Source of the DNA: Corynebacterium jeikeium
GTDB taxonomy: Bacteria > Actinomycetota > Actinomycetes > Mycobacteriales > Mycobacteriaceae
Length of the DNA stretch: 64,000 bases
Direction: 5' to 3'
Assembly: GCA_003955985.1 (NCBI GenBank)
Contig: CP033784.1
Span: 1-64,000 of the forward strand
The notes under the pieces are model-generated. The model searched no databases and was not told the origin of the DNA. It was given only the letters and a program-made list of their open reading frames with translations. Position numbers and translations under genes: made by a program. Position 1 is the stretch's first letter. The number at the start of each line of letters is the position of its first letter. This document shows positions 1-63,915 of the stretch, one piece after another.

Positions 1-532
1 GCAACGTCTTCCCCTGTAGCCACTGCGCGGTAGCGTACTGGAAATCGCGCTGAGTGAAGTCATTCATAATCGCGTACCCAGCGATAGCGTCCTGTGCCTG
101 CTCCTCCGACACCCGCAGGCAGGTCTCGCCGACGATAACCGCGAGCTCGCCTTCGTAATCGAGCTTCTCCGCGCAGGCCTCCGGCACTCGGATATCATCC
201 TTCGCACCGGCGACGGCATCGGCAAACTTCGCAAATAACGTTGGCACCTCGGGGCGCTGGTGCCCCATCTCGTCGATGTGCGCGGCATAGTTCAAGCCGA
301 CGCAGACGATTTTGCCCGGCCGCGTAATCAGCGGTGCGAACGCCCACGCGCTCTCCGCCATGACGTTGTCAGGGTTGTTCCCCGCCTCCGCCAAGAGTTC
401 TTCCGCTTCACGACGCCACGTTGGCCGCGCTAACACATCTCCGAGACAGTGGTCATCAAAAAGGACCGCTACGCCGTCGCCGAGAACAGCGGCGCGGGTT
501 GCACCCTGGTATCGCAACGTTGCTAGACGCAT
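1..532 (-). CDS. FAH-family (fumarylacetoacetate hydrolase-like) protein, 3' end outside the window
   Basis: The reading frame starts at an ATG at 532 (MRLATLRYQG) and runs off the left edge, so about 177 N-terminal residues are visible. The stretch KIVCVGLNYAAHIDEMGH, followed by PEVPTLFAKF and LDYEGELAVIVGE, is the characteristic entry into the FAH fold, with the acidic residues that bind the catalytic divalent metal. Family members are metal-dependent hydrolases, isomerases or decarboxylases of 2-oxo or dioxo acids; the substrate cannot be read from sequence. The ribosome binding site is weak (GAGAAAG-like). An in-frame stop lies just upstream, which supports this start. The family assignment is secure; a specific function is not. 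Confidence 0.85.
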   Translation of the reverse strand, partial: MRLATLRYQGATRAAVLGDGVAVLFDDHCLGDVLARPTWRREAEELLAEAGNNPDNVMAESAWAFAPLITRPGKIVCVGLNYAAHIDEMGHQRPEVPTLFAKFADAVAGAKDDIRVPEACAEKLDYEGELAVIVGETCLRVSEEQAQDAIAGYAIMNDFTQRDFQYATAQWLQGKTL

Positions 533-621
533 GGCTTTCTCATTTCTTCATGGCTATTCTCTGTGTCACTTCTGCCGCCTGATCGGCTCCCGGTTCCACG
601 CTACCGCCTTGTTGAGCTGAA

Positions 622-1818
622 TTAGGAAGCAGGTTCGCTCTTAGGCTGCCGCGGAGCCTCGCCTTCAGGCAGGGAAGAAGGATTCTGACTGCGCTGAAGG
701 GCACGCTGCCCCGGCGTAGTCATGCGCACTACCCACGCAGGACGGACAAAGAGCCACCCGGCACCGATGGCAAGCAGCAACCTGTGCAGACCAAGACACA
801 GCATCGCCGCAATGATAGTCACCAGCGGCGTCATGATGACCAAATGTGGGTCCTTCGGCAGAATGAGGTCACAAATAATCATGACCACAACCAACATTGG
901 AATGTGCATGAGGAAGATAGGCAGCGTTCGGCCGCCAACCTTTTCAAAGGGCACAACTAGGCGAGTGTTCTGCAGCATCGCCATAATATTGATTGCAGCC
1001 AGTGCGCCAGTGGTGGACAGGTACACGCGGGTGAAGCCGACGTTGCCTTCGTTAAAGCTCGAGTAGGTCGCCTGCACCCAGATCGCCACCGACAGGAACG
1101 CCGTCAGCGTCACTAGCAGTGAGAGGCCGCTGCGACGCTGTGCCATCCGGAAAATCCAGGGCGCACCGTACATGCCCAGCACGTAGAAGAACAGCATCTT
1201 GGTGACAAAGTCCCACGACCAGCTGGACGAGGCAAAAGGTGCCCATGCACTAATGAGGCCTGTAACGATGAGCTGAATCACCGGATGTACCCAGCGAAAT
1301 GCTCGTGTGAGAATTGCGAACAGCGCCAGCGCCCACAGGAACCAAAGGTAGGAAGTTGGTTCGATGATCGCGTGAAGCGTGTTGTAAATTCGCGGCCCCC
1401 ACGCGCTGTGGTCCGTGATCGGCGGCGGAGATACTATGCCATCGGCATCCACGTGCGTATACGGCATGAGGAAAAGCACGAAGTCACGCAGTGGAACCCA
1501 AATCACGTAGAGATAGACCATCACCCAGATTCGGCGATTGGCTAACTTATGCCACGACTCCTTAAGTGCCTTGCCGGCGAACAGCCCAGATAGCAGGAAA
1601 AACAGCGGCATACGGATTGGTCCGAGGAAGAAGTTAATCCCCGCCCACTGCGCCGTGTAGTAACCGTGCGCTTGCAGCTCTGTGATGGCATGGCCAAGCA
1701 CAACTAAAAGAATGCACAGCCCCTTAGCCGCATCTACCCAACCGACGCGCTGTTTCGGCGCACTCTTCTGCCTTTTCGCTTTGGCCTCCGCTGCCACGGG
1801 AGCGGCAGTTGGTGACAT
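622..1818 (-). CDS. Acyltransferase family 3 integral membrane protein
   Basis: 398 aa with about ten hydrophobic segments. The N-terminal WVDAAKGLCILLVVLGHAI contains the D-x-x-K-G-x-x-I...GH motif of acyltransferase_3 proteins, whose His is thought to be catalytic. Members transfer acetyl or other acyl groups to extracytoplasmic sugars or lipids. The N-terminus (residues 1-25) is Lys/Ala-rich and cytoplasmic, and the C-terminus (about 370-398) is polar. It lies downstream of dnaB on the same strand, separated by a strong hairpin, so it is probably transcribed separately. The acyl donor and target are unknown. Confidence 0.85.
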   Translation of the reverse strand: MSPTAAPVAAEAKAKRQKSAPKQRVGWVDAAKGLCILLVVLGHAITELQAHGYYTAQWAGINFFLGPIRMPLFFLLSGLFAGKALKESWHKLANRRIWVMVYLYVIWVPLRDFVLFLMPYTHVDADGIVSPPPITDHSAWGPRIYNTLHAIIEPTSYLWFLWALALFAILTRAFRWVHPVIQLIVTGLISAWAPFASSSWSWDFVTKMLFFYVLGMYGAPWIFRMAQRRSGLSLLVTLTAFLSVAIWVQATYSSFNEGNVGFTRVYLSTTGALAAINIMAMLQNTRLVVPFEKVGGRTLPIFLMHIPMLVVVMIICDLILPKDPHLVIMTPLVTIIAAMLCLGLHRLLLAIGAGWLFVRPAWVVRMTTPGQRALQRSQNPSSLPEGEAPRQPKSEPAS

Positions 1819-1914
1819 AGTGCTTCCCCGCTTCCCGACGACTCCGCGTAACCCTCAAAACCTTCAAAACCATCAACGCACGAAAACTCGCCCTATTGAC
1901 TGTCACTCACCTTA

Positions 1915-1952
1915 CCTAGCCACCCGGATTGCACTAATTCTGGGTGGCTAGG
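1915..1952. terminator. Strong hairpin between dnaB and the acyltransferase gene
   Basis: A perfect 11-bp inverted repeat (CCTAGCCACCC at 1915-1925, GGGTGGCTAGG at 1942-1952) with a 16-nt loop lies directly 3' of the dnaB stop. There is no T-run on either strand, so it is at best a non-canonical terminator. An operator for the acyltransferase gene is the alternative. Confidence 0.5.
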
Positions 1953-1960
1953 CCAGGCAC

Positions 1961-3553
1961 CTAGAGAGAACCGCTGGGCTCCTCCGCCAGGTTGGCGAAC
2001 CTGGAGTAATGCAGCTGGTGGGCCACAGCAATGCTTCCGGTCGGTCCACCACGGTGCTTTGCGACGATAATATCCGCCTCACCAGCACGTTCATGGTCAG
2101 CCTCCTGCGAGTCCGGCCGGTAAATCAGCATGACGATATCGGCATCCTGCTCCAGCGAACCCGACTCACGCAGGTCCGAGACCTGTGGCTTCTTATCTGT
2201 GCGAGCTTCCGGACCACGATTCAGCTGCGAAATTGCAATCAGCGGTACCTCGAGCTCCTTCGCCAACAACTTGAGCTGACGGGAGAACTCCGAGACCTCT
2301 TGCTGCCTGGACTCGACTTTTTTACCCGAGCTCATCAGCTGCAGGTAGTCGACCACGATCATCTTCAGATCGTGCTTCTGCTTCAGCTGACGTGCCTTCG
2401 CGCGAATTTCCATCATGGTCAGGTTCGGCGAGTCATCAATAAACAGCGGAGCATCACGAATCTTGTCGCCGACCTCGACCAGCTTTGTCCAGTCCCGCTC
2501 ATCCAGGTCACCGGAGCGCAAAGATGCCATGTTGATCTTCGCCTCTGCGGACATGATGCGCATCATGATTTCGTTGCGCGACATTTCCAACGAGAAAATT
2601 GCGCTGGTCATGCCGTTGCGAATCGAGGCCGAACGCATGAAGTCCATTGCAAGCGTGGACTTACCCACACCCGGACGGGCCGCAATAATCACCATCTGAC
2701 CTGGGTGAAGGCCATTTGTCAGCTTGTCCAGGTTGGTAATCCCCGTCGGCACACCCTGCGCCAGACCGCCGTTTTGGGTAATAAGATCCAGTTCCTCCAG
2801 CGTGTCATCCAGGACATCGGCGATGGGAACGTAGTCATTCTTCGTGTTCTCACGTCCAACGCTGAAAATGAGCTGCTGCGCCTCATCCACCAGCTGCTCC
2901 GGCTCCGTGTCCTCCGCGCCCGCATAGCCAATCTGGGCGATTTTCGTGCCGGCCTCTACCAGGCGACGGATTGTCGCCTTCTCCGCAACAATGCGGGCAT
3001 AGAACTGCGCATTCGCCGCCGTTGGCACCAGGGAGGCCAAGGTGTGCAGGTACAGCGGACCACCGATGCGCTCCAGGTCTCCAGTTCGATCCAGACGACC
3101 TGCCAGCAAAATGGGGTCAATTTCCGAGGACTCACCGTAGAGGTGCAAAATCGCCGAGTAAATCGTCTGGTGCGCTGGCCGGTAGAAATCCTCCGGCGTC
3201 AGCTGCTCGTACACATCCGCAACGACCTCTGAGTTCAGCAGCATCGCGCCGAGCACACTCTGCTCCGCCTCGATATTGTGCGGCGGGGTGCGCTCAAAAG
3301 TCGCGCCCGCGACCGCACTCGCACGAGCGCCACGACCACGGTCTCGCTCCCAGTCCCGCGCCCCAGATCCGCTTGCCGACGATCCGTTGCCCGAGCTCTG
3401 CGAGAAGGAATACTCCTCCGGTGGCGCATCCTCTACCGGCGGTTCCGGGGGCAGCGGAACGTCATCGAAGGAATCATCGTGGGAATTTACCGAGTAGGAG
3501 GACGCCTCGTCCCCTGCTCCGGAATGACCACCATCACCTACAGGCTGACTCAT
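1961..3553 (-). CDS. dnaB: Replicative DNA helicase DnaB
   Basis: 530 aa if started at ATG 3553 (MSQPVGDGG), which has a GGGAGGAG ribosome binding site 12 nt upstream. The open frame extends further upstream, but that extension lacks family similarity and crosses DnaA-box DNA. Residues 1-90 are acidic, Ser/Gly-rich and probably disordered. Next come the N-terminal dimerisation domain (HNIEAEQSVLGAML) and the RecA-like motor with Walker A ARPGVGKST (about 290) and Walker B-type VVDYLQLM (about 400). The protein is the hexameric fork helicase loaded at oriC. No intein is present, unlike in several mycobacteria. The neighbours rplI-ssb-rpsF are the classical corynebacterial arrangement. Confidence 0.96.
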   Translation of the reverse strand: MSQPVGDGGHSGAGDEASSYSVNSHDDSFDDVPLPPEPPVEDAPPEEYSFSQSSGNGSSASGSGARDWERDRGRGARASAVAGATFERTPPHNIEAEQSVLGAMLLNSEVVADVYEQLTPEDFYRPAHQTIYSAILHLYGESSEIDPILLAGRLDRTGDLERIGGPLYLHTLASLVPTAANAQFYARIVAEKATIRRLVEAGTKIAQIGYAGAEDTEPEQLVDEAQQLIFSVGRENTKNDYVPIADVLDDTLEELDLITQNGGLAQGVPTGITNLDKLTNGLHPGQMVIIAARPGVGKSTLAMDFMRSASIRNGMTSAIFSLEMSRNEIMMRIMSAEAKINMASLRSGDLDERDWTKLVEVGDKIRDAPLFIDDSPNLTMMEIRAKARQLKQKHDLKMIVVDYLQLMSSGKKVESRQQEVSEFSRQLKLLAKELEVPLIAISQLNRGPEARTDKKPQVSDLRESGSLEQDADIVMLIYRPDSQEADHERAGEADIIVAKHRGGPTGSIAVAHQLHYSRFANLAEEPSGSL

Positions 3554-3750
3554 CGTGAGCAGCTCCTCCCCTTCTGGACCACTTAGGTGCCTTTTCAACC
3601 CTGTTGCTGACTGACCGTCACACTCAATATGTCTGTTCCGACCGCCAGCAGTGGACACCTGACTACCTACCGCAGTTATACCTGTTCGAGCGGATTGATG
3701 GACCTGTAAAAGTACCCTTGGAGTCCCCAGAAAACAATCTTCTACGGTGT

Positions 3751-4098
3751 TTATCCCCGAAGTTATCCACAGCACCTGTGGATAAGCCTGGGGAGAACAT
3801 GTGCACAATCAAGAAAAGTCCAGGTGAACGGTCCGTAACCCTAAACCGCCGCTTGAATGTTAACGGGGGTAGCGGAGTTTCAATCCGAAAATATTCTATC
3901 TACGCAGGTCAGTGCGTATTTGCCTTAATCCTGCACAAATGTAATCCTCTGCTACCCCTTTAGCATCGATGCTGCTCATGCGGAGATTATTAACGATGAA
4001 TTAATAAAAATCTCGCGCTCTCCAGAAAAGTTATCCACGGCAGCCAGGCAAGTTACCCACAGGTCTATCCACAGCAATCGTCGTTAGCCTGTGGACAA
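3751..4098. promoter_or_regulatory. DnaA-box cluster in the dnaB upstream region
   Basis: The 735-bp gap between rplI and dnaB holds TTATCCACA at 3763-3771 and its inverse TGTGGATAA at 3777-3785, the pair being only 5 bp apart. One-mismatch boxes follow: TTATCCACG (4031), CTATCCACA (4065) and TGTGGACAA (4090), plus the weaker TTACCCACA (4053). An AT-rich stretch at about 3985-4012 lies between the two groups. The boxes are seen directly. Control of dnaB by DnaA, or titration of DnaA, is inference. Confidence 0.65.
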
Positions 4099-4158
4099 GT
4101 CGTAGACGCTCTTTCCAGCACCTGCGTAAAAGGCTTTAAACCAGCCTTAAACCACGAA

Positions 4159-58203: not shown

Positions 58204-59700
58204 TGACTGCGTTTATGACAAAAATGGCGTGGTAGGTTCAGGCGGTGAATGCATCACCACTTTCGACCAGGAGAAGTAGTGAAGCAAACCCGCCGAACGA
58301 AATACAGTGCCATCAAACCGATTGCGCTTCAACACATCGCCAACGGGGCATCAGCAAGCGCAGTTGGACGTGAGTTAGGGATACCCTCACCAACAGTCAG
58401 GCGGTGGGCGCGACAAGCCGGAATTGAGATCCAGCACCAATCGCACTGCCCGAAGGTCTCGATGATGCATAAGCATCGCGTGATCTACGAGATGCTTATG
58501 GCCGGCTCATATAGTGTTGCCGAGATTGCCGCGCAGGCTGGGGTGTGCACAACCACGGTGTACAACCGGCGGGCTAGTTTAACCACTATGAATACCCGCA
58601 GTCGGATAACACCTGGTGATGTATCTCGTGTTGGCGCTGGTCGGCGGCTAGGGCTGGCGGAACGCTTACTTATTGCCGATTGCCTGCGGGCAGGTCATTC
58701 GCACCGGCGTATCGCCCAGATGGTCTGTCGTAGTCAATCCACTATCAGTCGTGAAATCGCACGCAACAGCGTCGATGGTATCTACGATGCCTATCACGCT
58801 GATCAGGCCAGCCGCGGGCGTCTTGCTCGTCCAAAGCCGCGCAAACTCGATGACAATCGATTTTTGCGCGCCCAGGTTGTCAATCTGCTCAACCGTGGCG
58901 CCTCGCCGCGTCAGGCCAGTGGCAGGTTGGCTGCACTGTGGGGTGATAATACGTCCATGACTATTAGCCACGAGTCGATTTACCAGGCCCTTTACGTACA
59001 AGGGGCAGGCAGCTTGCGCAAAGAACTTGTGTTTGAAAAGTCCTGCCGGACTACCCGGCCAGGGCGTAAACCCCGCTCGCTTCTCGCGGGGGTGCCCAAG
59101 CCACGTGGAAAACGCTGGACTCATGATGCCAATATTTCACTTCGCCCAGCCGAAGCCAATGATCGTGCGGTACCCGGTCATTGGGAAGGCGATTTGATTA
59201 TTGGCGCAGATGGCACCAGTGCTTTAGCGACGTTGGTGGAGCGCCGCAGCAGGTTTGTGCTGCTCGGCAGACTCGGCACTGACCATACTGCCGCCAGTGT
59301 CAATGAGGTGATGGTACGGATGATTCGTCGGCTCAAAGAGTCGATGGACACCACGATTTCGACGTTGACCTGGGATCAGGGAGTGGAGTTTGCCAAACAC
59401 ACGGAGTTTTCTGTCGCGGAGAATATCCAGGTGTTTTTCGCCGATCCGCATTCGCCGTGGCAGCGAGGTAGCAATGAGCGGATGAATCGGGATATCCGGT
59501 TTTATTTCCCCAAAGGCACCAACTTTACCGATGTCACCGACCAAGAGGTCGCCGAGGCGGAAGCATTGCTGAATAACCGGCCGCGGGTAGTGCTCGACGG
59601 GTTAACTCCCCGGGAGGTAATCTCTGGTGTTATCCATGATGCAATGACCGCCTGACCCTACCGCGTGAAAAATGGCTTGAAACTGTCATAAACTTGCACA
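58204..59700 (+). mobile_element. IS30-family insertion sequence, copy 2
   Basis: The ends contain GTTTATGACA (58211-58220) and its inverse TGTCATAAAC; outer bases begin TG at 58204 and end CA at 59700. The inner 1.43 kb is nearly identical to copy 1 but the last 27-36 bp at both ends are clearly different. It lies 46 bp after the tRNA terminator and breaks no gene. No certain target duplication. Confidence 0.83.
58249..59655 (+). CDS. IS30-family transposase, copy 2
   Basis: 468 aa as the longest frame; GTG 58279 behind AGGAG is the likely start. It is intact, with the DDE residues as in copy 1. The differences to copy 1 are E42, G44, E60, V70, H74 and M158; the catalytic half is identical. 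All changed residues lie in the N-terminal DNA-recognition part. Confidence 0.93.
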   Translation: MHHHFRPGEVVKQTRRTKYSAIKPIALQHIANGASASAVGRELGIPSPTVRRWARQAGIEIQHQSHCPKVSMMHKHRVIYEMLMAGSYSVAEIAAQAGVCTTTVYNRRASLTTMNTRSRITPGDVSRVGAGRRLGLAERLLIADCLRAGHSHRRIAQMVCRSQSTISREIARNSVDGIYDAYHADQASRGRLARPKPRKLDDNRFLRAQVVNLLNRGASPRQASGRLAALWGDNTSMTISHESIYQALYVQGAGSLRKELVFEKSCRTTRPGRKPRSLLAGVPKPRGKRWTHDANISLRPAEANDRAVPGHWEGDLIIGADGTSALATLVERRSRFVLLGRLGTDHTAASVNEVMVRMIRRLKESMDTTISTLTWDQGVEFAKHTEFSVAENIQVFFADPHSPWQRGSNERMNRDIRFYFPKGTNFTDVTDQEVAEAEALLNNRPRVVLDGLTPREVISGVIHDAMTA

Positions 59701-59800: not shown

Positions 59801-59948
59801 GAAAAGGCTTTTGGCTATCTAGCTGTACTGACCGGGGACGTTAGTTGACTTGCGTGGCATCGCCCGGGCTCTGTATCCTCGGCCGCATGTACTCAGGCAT
59901 CGCCTCGATGAAGCTGCGTTCCGTCCGCTGACGGCGGCGGGACCCCTT

Positions 59949-60107
59949 ATGACCTCTCGTCTGCCGTCCTGGCCATCTGCCGGGCGGCCGCTTCGTGGTG
60001 CCCGGCTCCATGACGAGCTGAAAGTACGCAATGCCAACCACAGAACCTTTACGATCATGTGCCTGGATCGGGACATCCCAAGGGCCCGCTGCACACATCC
60101 GCGCTGA
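59949..60107 (+). promoter_or_regulatory. Attenuator-like leader of the ABC-F gene (upstream reading frame and hairpin)
   Basis: A 52-codon frame from ATG 59949 (MTSRLPSWPSAG) overlaps the ABC-F start in another frame. Inside it GCCGGGC (59979-59985) and GCCCGGC (60000-60006) form a perfect 7-bp GC stem, 25 nt before the ABC-F ATG. Such leaders control many drug-inducible ABC-F and erm genes; here this is inference. Confidence 0.35.
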
Positions 60108-61683
60108 ATCACTCCACCTGACACTCGGCGACAGGCCGCTGCTGAGTGGGACTGACGTCACCGTCTCCACCGGGTCGCGACTGGCGATCGTCGGCGACAA
60201 CGGCCGGGGCAAGACCACCTTGCTCCATATACTGGCGGGGATCTTGAAACCCGACTCGGGAGTGGTGACCCGGGTGGGTTCCCTCGTCCTGGTCAAGCAG
60301 GACATGGCCACCGAGGGCGATCGCACGGTCGGTGACCTCATTGCCGAGGCGACCGCCCCATCCAGGGCCGCTCTGCAGGCCCTCGACGTGGCTACCGCGG
60401 CGCTGGCCGCGGGCGATGACGCGGCCGACGCTTATTCCGCCGCACTCGAGGCGGCCACGCGGCTGGACGCCTGGGATGCAGACCGCCGTGTTGACATCGC
60501 CCTGGCGGGCCTGAACGCCTGTAGCGACCGCGATCGGGTCCTGTCGACCTTGTCGGTCGGCCAGCGGTACCGGGTACGGCTGGCGGTCGCCCTCGGATCG
60601 ACCCCTGACCTGTTGCTGCTGGACGAGCCCACCAACCACCTGGACGCTGCAGGGCTGTCCTTCCTGACTGAGCGCCTGCGGGACCACCCCGGTGGCCTGG
60701 CCTTAGTCAGCCACGACCGCGCCCTGCTGCGCGACGTGGCGACCAGCTTCCTGGACCTCGACCCGACCCGCGATGGCCTTCCGCGCACCTACGCGGGCGG
60801 TTACGAGGGCTGGATCGAAGGGCGGCAACGAGAACGGGCCGCCTGGGAGCAAGACCATGCCGCCCAGGTCGCCCGGCATCAGGAACTGACCCGCGCCGCC
60901 GCCGACGCACGCTCCCGCCTGTCCCAGGGTGGATGGAGACCTGAAAAGGGCACAGGCAAGCACCAACGTGCCACACGCGCTGCTGGAGTGGTCCAAGCCT
61001 TCAACCGACGTATCGAAGACCTGAAAAGTCATGAAATCGGCGTCCCGGCGCCGCCACTGCGTCTTGCGTGGCCCGCCTCGGCAACCCGTGCCGGACAGAG
61101 CATCATGAACGCCACCCAGGTTACTGTGAAGGGCCGATTGGACGCTCCGGTTTCGGTCGACGTGAACGGCGGTGACCGGTTGGTGGTCACCGGACCGAAC
61201 GGCGCGGGAAAATCCACCCTGTTGGCACTTCTCGCAGGGCGGCTGGCCCCCACCACGGGACATGTGCGAGTTAATCCGAGAGCGCGCATCGCTCTGCTGT
61301 CCCAAGAGGTCCCCGACTGGGACCGCTCCAGCCCCGCACACGAGGTCTATGAGGCCTACCTGGCGAAGCTAGGCCGTCGAGCTCAGGCGCCGTCCCTCGG
61401 CTCGCTCGGGCTGCTCGAAGCCTCCGCAACCGGCACGCCGGTGGGGCGCTTGTCGCAAGGACAGCAACGCCGTCTCCACCTGGCCATGTGTCTGGCCCAG
61501 GATCCAGACCTGCTGCTCCTGGACGAGCCCACCAACCATCTGTCATCGAGCCTCGTCGACGACATCACCACCGAGCTGCTGCAGACCTCCTGCGCGGTGA
61601 TCGTTGCCACGCATGACCGTCAGATGCTCCACGACCTGGCCGACTGGCCCCACCTGAACCTTGACCTGAAGGACATGCCATGA
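60031..61683 (+). CDS. ABC-F family ATPase, probable antibiotic ribosome-protection protein
   Basis: 550 aa from ATG 60031. Two ABC domains without membrane segments: Walker [10 protein letters not shown] (about 55) and GPNGAGKST (about 390); signatures [12 protein letters not shown] and [12 protein letters not shown]; Walker [13 protein letters not shown] and [13 protein letters not shown] linker of about 80 residues rich in Arg/Glu ([20 protein letters not shown]) separates them. ABC-F factors enter the ribosomal E site; the ARE branch displaces macrolides, lincosamides, streptogramins or pleuromutilins. It lies in a mobile unit and overlaps an MFS gene, which recalls mef/msr pairs. The drug spectrum is not predictable. 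Confidence 0.85.
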
Positions 61684-62924
61684 ACCCGCTTCACCCCTTG
61701 ACCATCCCCACGTACCGTCAGCTGTTCGCAGCGATGGTGCTGACCATCTTCGCCCAGGGTGCCTGGGCCCTCTACCTTGCCATGCAGACCCTCGACCTGG
61801 GCGCCACGCCAGCCGCCCTGTCGGGTGTCGTAGTCTGGAGCGGCATTGGCCTGCTTGCAGGATCCCTCCCAGCTGGCGTAATCGCAGACCGGTTCCCCAA
61901 TAAGTCCGTCATCGTGAGCGTGCTCACCCTGAACCTCACCATCGCGACCGCGACGTCCACGGCAGCAATCCTCGACATTGTCACCTTCTGGATGCTCGCG
62001 GTCTCCGCGTTCATCATTGGCACTTCAACCGCATTCTTCTTCCCCGCCTACACGGCGCTGGTGCCAGTCCTGGTGGACGGCGACGACTTAATGGCCGTCA
62101 ACGGCCTCGAAGGCGCCGCCCGCCCGTTGGTCGGACAGGCAATTGCGCCCGCCGCCGTCGGAGCGGTCATCGGTGCCAGCATGCCCGCCGCGGGCGGGTA
62201 CCTCATCGCCGGCGCGCTCGGACTCGCCCTGATCGCCGCCCTGCGGCTTCCTGCCCCTTGCTCAGCCGAGACCGACGCCGAAGCTCCGGCCACCTCTGCG
62301 CTGCGGGACCTGCTCGACGGGTTCGGCTACGTCGCCCGCACGCGCTGGGTTCGCTCCAGCGTGCTGTTGGCGGCCGCCATGGGCCTGGCCGTGACCGGTC
62401 CGCTGGAAGTTCTCCTGCCCGCGGTCATACGCTCGACCCATGACAACGGTCCGGCTGTGTACGGAGTCGTCCTCGGAGTTCTGGGCGTCGGCGGCCTGGT
62501 GGGTTCCCTCGTCGCCGGCTCATGGCCCACCCCCTCACACTTCCTGCCCGTAATGGTCGGCGCATGGGTACTCGGCTGCCTTCCACTGGCCATCCCCGCA
62601 CTCACCAACAATCCGTGGATCATCAGCGCCGGACTGGCGGTCTACGGTGCGTCGATCGGAGTCGGGATGGTCATCTGGGGCACGGTCCTGCAGGAACACG
62701 TACCGCTGGAGATGCTCGGCCGAGTCGCCAGCCTCGACTTCTTCATCTCCATCGCCTTCATGCCACTGTCCATCGCACTCACCGGACTCCTCAGCCGACA
62801 CATCGCCGCTGCCAGCTTGTTCATCGCCGCCGGACTCGTGCCGCTCGCCACGACGATCCTCCTTGCAGTCCTGGGGCAACTCCGAACGCCGCGGACGACG
62901 CCCGTCGCAGCAGGTGAGGAGTGA
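61680..62924 (+). CDS. MFS efflux transporter, Mef-like
   Basis: 414 aa, overlapping the ABC-F stop by 4 nt (ATGA). Twelve membrane helices. The MFS_3 pattern is visible: [25 protein letters not shown], the motif-A-like [16 protein letters not shown] between helices 2 and 3, and [39 protein letters not shown]. The branch includes Mef macrolide pumps and EntS-like exporters. The C-terminal end overlaps the transposase start, so the last residues may come from the junction. Confidence 0.85.
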
Positions 62925-63907
62925 TGCACGCCAACGCCACCCTGACACCTCGCCACCGGCTCAAGGTGGCCCAGCTCGTCGTCGACGACGGTTGGCCCAT
63001 CAGCGAAGTCGCCGCCCGCTTCCAGGTCTCCTGGCCGACCGTGAAGAGGTGGGTCGACCGCTATCGCGCCGGCGAGTCGATGCAGGATCGCTCGTCCCGG
63101 CCGAAGACCTCACCGAACAAGACGGACAAGGCGACGACGAAGCGGTGCGTCAGCCTGCGGATACGGCTGCGTGAGGGCCCCGTGCAGCTCGCCGCCCGAC
63201 TCGGCATCGCGCCCTCGACCGTCCACCGCATCTTGGCCGGTGCCCGACTGAACCGGCTCTCCTACATGGACCGCGAGACTGGCGAACCGATCCGCCGGTA
63301 CGAACACCCCCACCCCGGCTCCCTGGTCCACGTGGACGTGAAGAAGCTCGGGAACATCCCCGACGGCGGCGGCTGGCGCTACGTCGGCCGCCGCCAGGGC
63401 GACCACAACCGAACGGCGACACCGGGTAAGCCGAAGAGCAAGTGGCACAACCCCAGGCTCGGGTACGCGTTCGTGCACACCGTCATTGACGACCACTCCC
63501 GCGTCGCGTACACCGAGGTCCACGACGACGAGACCGCCGTCACCGCGGTCGGGGTCCTGCATCGGGCTGTGGCGTGGTTTGCCGATCGCGGCGTCGCCGT
63601 GGAGCGGGTGCTGTCCGACAACGGTGGCGCCTATCGCTCGCACCTGTGGCGGGACACCTGCGAGGCCCTCTCGATCACCCCGAAGCGGACGCGTCCGTAC
63701 CGGCCGCAGACCAACGGCAAGGTAGAGCGCTTCCACCGGACCATGGCCGACGGGTGGGCCTACGCCCGCTGCTACACCAGCGAGCAAGAACGACGCGACG
63801 CCCTGCCGGATTGGCTGCACCAGTACAACCAGCACCGCCCGCACACGGCCTGCGACAACCAGCCGCCGTTCTCACGATTGATCAACGTCCCCGAGCAGTA
63901 CATCTAG
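62924..63907 (+). CDS. IS481-family transposase
   Basis: 327 aa from ATG 62924, overlapping the MFS stop. N-terminal helix-turn-helix LTPRHRLKVAQLVVDDGWPISEVAARFQVSWPTVKRWVDRYR, a second HTH (LAARLGIAPSTVHRIL), and the rve-type core with D in SLVHVDVKKLG, D in VLSDNGGAYRS and E in TNGKVERFHRT. It appears intact. A left terminal repeat directly upstream of it is not seen; the matching repeat lies 3.1 kb away at 59819. Confidence 0.92.
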   Translation: MHANATLTPRHRLKVAQLVVDDGWPISEVAARFQVSWPTVKRWVDRYRAGESMQDRSSRPKTSPNKTDKATTKRCVSLRIRLREGPVQLAARLGIAPSTVHRILAGARLNRLSYMDRETGEPIRRYEHPHPGSLVHVDVKKLGNIPDGGGWRYVGRRQGDHNRTATPGKPKSKWHNPRLGYAFVHTVIDDHSRVAYTEVHDDETAVTAVGVLHRAVAWFADRGVAVERVLSDNGGAYRSHLWRDTCEALSITPKRTRPYRPQTNGKVERFHRTMADGWAYARCYTSEQERRDALPDWLHQYNQHRPHTACDNQPPFSRLINVPEQYI

Positions 63908-63915
63908 CCGCCTAT

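Follow-up and report, generated by a model that had tools for sequence, protein, structure and literature searches.

A probable transporter insertion sequence of the IS481 family carrying an ABC-F/MFS gene pair behind a putative drug-type leader in Corynebacterium jeikeium

Introduction

Several insertion sequences (ISs) of the IS481 family, in which 6 bp is the majority length of the target duplication (PMC10045372), carry passenger genes between their ends, and here we describe a 4,079-bp element of this kind in Corynebacterium jeikeium that encloses genes for an ABC-F ATPase and a major facilitator superfamily (MFS) transporter. It lies in a 64,000-nucleotide (nt) stretch of DNA (positions 1 to 64,000 of the forward strand of contig CP033784.1, GenBank assembly GCA_003955985.1), the whole of which is referred to below as the window. 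A sequence-only reading of the window, made earlier without database searches, had considered passenger-carrying IS481 elements to be little described, a view that the literature does not bear out, as TnRErm46, Tn5564/IS5564, ISArsp12, and ISPfr21 are all known. TnRErm46 of Rhodococcus equi, with its IS ISRe46, is reported to use an NCTAGN target that also supplies the stop codon (PMC6794481). Tn5564/IS5564 is a passenger-carrying IS481 element with cmx (PMC8304765, PMC5467266), and Tn5564 is reported to transpose in C. glutamicum (Tauch 1998, as cited in PMC5467266); ISPfr21 is named alongside ISArsp12 in the account of the latter (PMC6305408).

Results

Boundaries and genes of the element

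The element spans positions 59824 to 63902 of the window, has the 5'-TGT...ACA ends and 6-bp target duplication of the IS481 family, and carries one transposase and unrelated passengers between a single pair of IS ends, as a transporter IS does. The matching tips first noted at 59819 to 59842 and, inverted, at 63884 to 63907 are complementary at 21 of 24 positions (88%), but they were drawn too long, as the outer 5 bases belong to the target duplication and the true ends are 19 bp. The left terminal inverted repeat (IRL; TGTACTGACCGGGGACGTT, 59824 to 59842, plus strand) and the right terminal inverted repeat (IRR; TGTACTGCTCGGGGACGTT, an inverted copy at 63884 to 63902 on the minus strand, within the transposase open reading frame [ORF]) match at 17 of 19 positions, with 2 mismatches, and are the only two matches to the end sequence at up to 3 mismatches in 64 kb, for an expectation of 0.01. 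Matching of the ends by chance was considered and is ruled out by this expectation. A target duplication had been suggested as something to look for, and a perfect 6-bp direct repeat, TCTAGC, does border the unit, abutting both tips exactly (59818 to 59823 on the left and 63903 to 63908 on the right); the hexamer itself is not rare, with 11 occurrences within the window. No second terminal repeat is found directly upstream of the transposase at up to 5 mismatches, in line with what the sequence-only reading had claimed.

Three plus-strand genes make up the unit, and all are open and joined by two 4-nt overlaps, as first read. The first (60031 to 61683) codes for a 550-amino-acid (aa) ABC-F ATPase of putative ribosome-protection type, which has the two ABC domains in a single soluble chain with a linker that mark ABC-F proteins (ABC_tran matches in two stretches); the second (61680 to 62924) codes for a 414-aa efflux-type MFS transporter (MFS_3), whose start overlaps the ABC-F stop by 4 nt; and the third (62921 to 63907) codes for a 328-aa IS481-family DDE transposase with a GTG start. 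The transposase matches NF033577 at 340.7 bits (cut-off, 224) over profile positions 1 to 284 of 284, and its motif residues are D139, D233, and E269, with 35 residues separating the last two, which we take by motif to be the catalytic triad. Its TAG stop falls in the right-hand duplication, and target DNA therefore supplies the transposase stop codon.

The best PDB matches of the ABC-F protein are EttA and then ExpZ, Lmo0919, PoxtA, Lsa(A), and a chain named macrolide efflux protein. Its best NCBIfam model is NF000171 (TlrC/CarA/OleB/SrmB), at 323 bits and so below the cut-off of 800, and the general ribosomal-protection model gives 317 bits, below its cut-off of 380. A resistance function of the ABC-F/MFS cargo is likely. 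In the msr/mef systems of Gram-positive cocci, an ABC-F protein and an MFS pump are encoded in one operon, and the likeness to these drawn earlier stands for the order of ABC-F and MFS genes, but the proteins are only distant relatives by their bit scores, which are below the NCBIfam cut-offs (181 of 680 bits for Msr and 50 of 675 for MefA).

Copies at other sites

The earlier claim that an IS481 element has taken up passenger genes is borne out by the ends and duplication, by occurrence at other sites in three Actinomycetota families, and by two unoccupied sites. The pair with ends is present in 10 of 242 genomes of the genus (its own included). The C. gottingense copy (G067) aligns at 92% identity from 15 to 4111 of 4121 and has a frameshifted transposase; G085 (C. 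kefirresidentii), G221, and G201 (Corynebacterium sp. ACRPO) have units with a transposase remnant; and G154 (Corynebacterium sp. HMSC05H05), G053, G091 (C. haemomassiliense), G099, and G160 have 3.2-kb units without a transposase. The transposase is thus a remnant or gone in 8 of the 10 corynebacterial copies, and the cargo stays open. Compared with the left end in the window, ends of the G085/G221/G201 type have 3 to 6 differences in 19 positions, and the G160 left end has more. A named scan added two complete-length units, one in Nigerium massiliense SIT7 with a perfect TCTAGT duplication and a frameshifted transposase, and one in Austwickia chelonae with an open transposase and an imperfect duplication. 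In an even sample of the class, the unit is found at E 1e-100 in 1 of 394 genomes, which is the window's own, and none of 72,556 plasmid records carries 80% of it. Clusters 80 to 87% identical to the ABC-F or MFS protein, among the best 120 for each, are from Luteococcus, Kocuria, Micrococcus, and Ornithinimicrobium.

Two of these insertions show what was interrupted. The Nigerium unit splits a GH32 gene, such that the flanks minus one TCTAGT form a single open frame, and the right-hand piece matches Glyco_hydro_32N (E 2.3e-64) from profile position 47. The C. kefirresidentii insertion site is at the TAG stop of a neighboring ABC-ATPase gene. A search for empty sites, as had been proposed, found this site uninterrupted and with a single CTAG in two relatives, G219 (81%) and G105 (75%), among 26 genomes searched (G085 included), of which 3 match the right flank only and the other 20 have no match; against the empty sites, the right side of the joined flanks aligns cleanly to CTAG and the left side is gapped near CTAG. 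It is by comparison of occupied and unoccupied sites only that the whole unit is seen at new sites. From these sequence comparisons, its status as a mobile passenger-carrying IS481 element is well supported.

A family of cargo-carrying IS481 elements

Judged by sequence, the unit belongs to a family of passenger-carrying IS481 elements whose ends are similar and whose cargo differs. Both ends were placed for 41 elements, comprising 8 copies of the unit, 5 plasmid elements, a C. haemomassiliense cmx element, and 27 genus loci. The set takes in neither the loci with one recognized end (L004, L041, L042, L043, L058, and L117) nor L048, which has none, nor additional copies of the same unit loci. 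A perfect 6-bp duplication is present in 24 of the 41. CTAG borders the left end in 37 elements and the right end likewise in 37, counts that are biased because ends with more than 4 mismatches were accepted only beside CTAG. Equality of the flanking bases was unselected with one exception: of the two left ends of L028, the outer one was chosen because it matches (the inner end would give 23 of 41). Elements of at least 1.85 kb account for 34 of the 41, compared with about 1.09 kb for the 7 cargo-free ones, and passenger carriage is therefore common in this IS481 lineage of Corynebacterium.

The cargo is varied and includes MazE/AbrB-like plus ABC exporter, TetR, WYL plus VOC, AraC plus VOC, DUF2268, LysR plus EamA, WYL plus NmrA, TetR plus cupin, WYL plus RidA, Rrf2 plus NAD(P)H-binding, MarR, VOC, and Cmx, and in L058, DUF2268 is found with a MerR/TipAS regulator. 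Cargo frames were chosen by third-position GC and Pfam, as choice of the longest ORF gave wrong frames in several GC-rich elements; this choice gave no identity for the second gene of L029 or for cargo of L040, L042, and L043. The transposase gene is at the right end of family elements. In the ABC-F/MFS, ABC-exporter, and cmx units, it shares a few bases with the gene before it; it is about 50 to 90 nt behind that gene in L005, L007, L033, L034, L044, L058, and L118, and about 600 to 740 nt behind the last identified gene in L046 and L036; close coupling of transposase and cargo is therefore not general. The target supplies a TAG stop for 34 of 38 transposases evaluated, with TAA in three and no stop in one, L041 being too short for evaluation; 10 of the 38 frames have internal stops, and all 28 others end in the target's TAG.

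An IS481 element with a normal left end next to its transposase had been named as evidence that would speak against passenger uptake. At up to 5 mismatches, the window unit shows no such arrangement. Its cargo-free relatives do, with the left end about 110 nt before the usual transposase start, but their transposases (six of the seven are in the tree of 25 rows) form a separate clade with support of 100/97.

Two arrangements in the family are of interest in themselves. In L028 (G040:C1:467364-475148, reversed), a 7.4-kb arrangement has matching ACTAGG duplications. Nested in it is an ABC-exporter IS481 unit with a left end of its own, and the hexamer next to that end is not ACTAGG. The additional 4.4 kb carries a gene for an RrnaAD (Erm-like) methyltransferase, and the arrangement suggests that a distant left end can serve for cargo uptake. 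The C. haemomassiliense cmx element (L067:10000-12437) has a perfect CCTAGC duplication and lies about 1 kb from an ABC-F/MFS unit. The Cmx protein that it encodes shares 390 of 391 residues with the Cmx of pTP10.

Origin of the cargo and recombination between units

The named scan gave 39 loci, of which 7 have an ABC-F protein at least 82% identical to that of the window, all 7 with the MFS gene and both ends. At 27 loci with 49 to 66% ABC-F identity, no relative of the unit MFS and no paired ends were found in flanks of up to 6 kb (MFS relatives were called at E 1e-5 and more than 60 bits, some contigs were shorter, and the last five of the 39 loci are remote). The ABC-F tree unites the mobile copies in a clade (100/99), to which G040 is sister (100/100). 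G040 has the pair, but neither recognizable ends nor a transposase lie within 1.5 kb of it to the left or right. A pair without ends had been put forward as a potential refutation of the mobile unit, and it does occur this once (over a 6-kb stretch), but we do not take it to refute the unit, as G040 branches just outside the mobile clade; we read it as a related nonmobile arrangement, and alternatively its ends may have been lost. Similarity to G040 begins within the leader ORF described below, at 110 of the query, and runs to 3091, near the end of the MFS gene; weaker similarity extends back to the -10 hexamer. An IS481 element that captured promoter, leader, and both genes between its left end and its transposase would fit this pattern. 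A distant ABC-F/MFS pair is also present on Glutamicibacter protophormiae plasmid pR912A (L008, 2308-5228), where the ABC-F protein is 50% identical and the pair adjoins genes for an IS5-type transposase and XerD-like proteins; it was perhaps mobilized independently.

The window copy is mosaic, with a C. kefirresidentii-like recombination tract at 60927 to 62181 in an otherwise C. gottingense-like unit, covering the C-terminal half of the ABC-F protein and the N-terminal part of the MFS protein. In 300-base steps, identity to C. gottingense is 97 to 99% as far as about 60870 and again from about 62220 onward, and identity to C. kefirresidentii is 95 to 100% in between, with switch points near 60910 to 60927 and 62181 to 62192. 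The 771 informative sites fall in long runs, 501 siding with C. gottingense and 270 with C. kefirresidentii. Most simply, two unit lineages would have met and recombined recently. Ratios of nonsynonymous to synonymous substitution rates (dN/dS) are 0.12 to 0.23 for ABC-F in 19 of 21 pairs (0.29 and 0.39 in two near-identical pairs) and 0.15 to 0.29 for MFS in 9 of 10 pairs (0.57 in one near-identical pair), although values for pairs with the window copy are affected by the mosaic; the ratios point to purifying selection, by which the cargo has been kept functional even where the transposase is gone.

A conserved leader ORF

Upstream of the ABC-F gene is a 14-codon leader ORF, MYSGIASMKLRSVR (59887 to 59931, plus strand), recognized by its conservation. 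A -10-like TAnnnT hexamer (59874 to 59879, plus strand; by eye) is 7 nt before its ATG, predicting a leaderless start. The 5' region at 59905 to 60030 (plus strand), a putative attenuator, is highly conserved and has GC-rich helices that exclude one another. The ORF and most of the next 100 nt are kept upstream of ABC-F in the mobile copies examined and in G040. By eye, a leader-type peptide of 13 or 14 residues precedes 17 of 24 nonmobile ABC-F homologues scanned (L091, L095, and L097 were left out, as the upstream stretch is missing), for example MARGIWSQKVRSAR in Streptomyces, MYPGALSLKPWSGR in Dietzia, MYSGIASMKLRTRR in Rothia, and MKFHATVVKPWSLR in Micromonospora. By score, 16 of the 24 reach six matches besides the start, compared with 4 of 960 shuffled upstream regions, with the caveat that L088 is among the 16 yet is not a leader by eye, and that the leaders of L082 and L089 score below six. 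TAnnnT is found 6 or 7 nt before the ATG in 17 of 17 homologous leaders, as for a leaderless transcript, and the leader ORF is probably translated from such a transcript. Among L074 to L092, leader ORFs of this leaderless type, 13 or 14 codons long, stand ahead of ABC-F genes from Streptomyces, Micromonospora, Dietzia, Nocardia, and other genera.

Peptide length and a K-x-[RW] end are preserved across families, and the K-L-R in the leader of the mobile copies agrees with the Arg/Lys-X-Arg/Lys motif at which ketolides predominantly stall ribosomes, macrolides being reported to stall them more broadly (PMC8298421). Elsewhere, ABC-F genes are under the control of short ORFs that precede them (PMC12421871). 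A conserved leader before the ABC-F gene suggests that the entire operon, with its transposase gene, is expressed under drug control.

Neighborhood of the insertion

The window unit is just downstream of a minus-strand gene, inserted between the stop of that gene and a 7-bp inverted repeat, after which come five T residues on the minus strand (by eye). In G090, the best of 31 relatives, another gene is present between the tRNAs and the right-hand gene, where the window has the unit. Directly to the left of the unit, behind gyrA and a tRNA-Ile/tRNA-Ala pair, is a complete IS30-family element (58228 to 59665) with a 468-aa transposase and 29-nt inverted ends that are 86% complementary. A composite transposon formed with this IS30 element was considered and is ruled out, as the IS481 ends and duplication bracket the three genes only.

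Discussion

The unit is very probably a passenger-carrying IS481-family transposon, or transporter IS, that is seemingly autonomous and whose operon stands behind a drug-type leader in the manner proposed here. Its transposase would recognize the TGTACTG... ends and insert the 4.08-kb unit into NCTAGN with duplication of 6 bp, as comparison of the copies supports, and its gene would be ended by the target's TAG and form one operon with the two genes that it follows, as the overlaps indicate. A promoter just inside the left end, behind which lies the leaderless 14-codon ORF, is predicted from conservation. By analogy with known ABC-F attenuators, the leader would hold operon expression down without drug, and a macrolide-like drug that stalls the ribosome on the leader would relieve this repression; the ABC-F protein would then dislodge drug from ribosomes, the pump would export it, and transposase would be made simultaneously. 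The ABC-F/MFS module would have been taken up with its promoter and leader by the IS481 lineage and carried between actinobacterial families.

Several observations weigh against parts of this account. The source genome has a single transposase copy with no other relative at E 1e-10 (one assembly), an orthologous empty site for the window unit was not found among 31 relatives, and perfect duplications are absent in 17 of the 41 family elements, which include three kinds of copy of the unit itself (C. gottingense, C. haemomassiliense-type, and Austwickia). The ABC-F protein reaches no NCBIfam cut-off among the best 25 of 195 models. For the leader, none is seen by eye in 7 of the 24 nonmobile homologues (L073, L088, L093, L094, L096, L098, and L099); the helices are nearly invariant and hardly covary, with a double change in 1 of 45 pairs; constrained folds disagree between copies and give no uniform switch; no T-tailed terminator was found in the 5' region; and an Rfam search of the window copy gave no credible match (a single match at E 2.6, far below the gathering score).

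A chromosomal ABC-F/MFS pair lying beside an unrelated IS481 element, with ends that are coincidental or belong to another element, would be in keeping with G040 and its pair without ends and with the 27 more distant ABC-F homologues that have no MFS relative or paired ends, but it is hardly credible given the 0.01 end matches expected in 64 kb, the same genes and end type with perfect duplications at other sites in Nigerium and C. kefirresidentii, and the two natural unoccupied sites. An insertion that has ceased to be mobile would be in keeping with a transposase that is frameshifted in C. gottingense and Nigerium and is a remnant or missing in 8 further corynebacteria, and with the single copy in the source genome. 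Such immobility is rather doubtful for the window unit, whose transposase is full length with its DDE residues, whose duplication has no mismatch, and whose transposase region is 97 to 99% identical to the C. gottingense copy despite different flanks.

The cargo could also serve something other than antibiotic resistance, the ABC-F protein helping to translate difficult messages or having a regulatory role, and the pump exporting a metabolite. No named resistance-family cut-off is reached, and ARE5-type ABC-F proteins are reported also to regulate (PMC12421871), but this explanation is unlikely, since TlrC/CarA/OleB/SrmB is the best model, an upstream leader ORF is usual for resistance ABC-F genes (PMC12421871), and erm(46) and cmx are found in related elements. 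Similarly, the lack of a T-tailed terminator and the ambiguous folds would suit a 14-codon leader that is a conserved RNA element or translational start device and not a drug sensor; this seems somewhat improbable with peptide length and the K-x-[RW] end kept across families and with short upstream ORFs controlling other ABC-F genes (PMC12421871).

If the unit is the drug-regulated transposon proposed, its transposase would be the last cistron of a drug-sensed operon, and the antibiotic that induces the cargo would therefore also induce the transposase. Such inducible transposition, with protection protein, pump, and transposase coinduced, is a possibility that we put forward tentatively; antibiotic-induced activation has been reported for IS256 (by a title cited in PMC9330008). 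If true, control of the cargo doubles as control of transposition; as the transposase follows differently regulated cargo across the family, different stresses would set different members in motion. With resistance-type cargo, a drug-type leader, and a transposase in one operon, antibiotic-induced transposition is directly testable, and the putative ribosome-protection and efflux module in this 4-kb transposon has reached at least three Actinomycetota families.

Comparison with described systems places the unit among known elements and sets its cargo apart. No literature pairing IS481 with ABC-F, Corynebacterium with ABC-F and IS481, or C. tuberculostearicum with ABC-F was found in open-licence publications. 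Tn5564/IS5564 (C. striatum pTP10) is similar in that an MFS resistance gene, cmx, overlaps the start of an IS481-type transposase gene, by 1 nt, but its transposase is 65% identical, its end is TGTGATGTCCAGGGACGTTG, and it has a single annotated passenger gene; with this identity, another end, and other cargo, the window unit does not belong to Tn5564/IS5564. TnRErm46 differs in its 6.9-kb length, its seven genes with erm(46), TetR, and others, its end (TGTTGCGGGTCATGACGTTG), and its plasmid location with many insertion sites (PMC6794481). ISArsp12 of Arthrobacter pA2H1 is closer, with nearly the same ends (TGTACTGACCGGACACGTTG), an NCTAGN duplication, and two passengers (PMC6305408), and its transposase is 78.9% identical to that of the window; it differs in its length of 2,615 bp and its cargo of an ArsR regulator and a permease (PMC6305408). 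Plasmid IS481 units with WYL and RidA (Dietzia pI and pDK313-83), Rrf2 and NAD(P)H-binding (Micrococcus pLMV7), and WYL and VOC (C. jeikeium pA505) have the same type of ends, perfect NCTAGN duplications, and transposases 78 to 89% identical, but their cargo is metabolic or regulatory, and their gene tables list separate genes only. Are5sc and TiaA of Streptomyces coelicolor likewise have an ABC-F gene behind a short upstream ORF, although the leader peptides reported for them (MLV, MRS, and MVGDDDISG) are unlike the 14-residue leader of the unit (PMC12421871). The kind of element is thus known, and it is the ABC-F/MFS cargo with its short leader gene that looks new.

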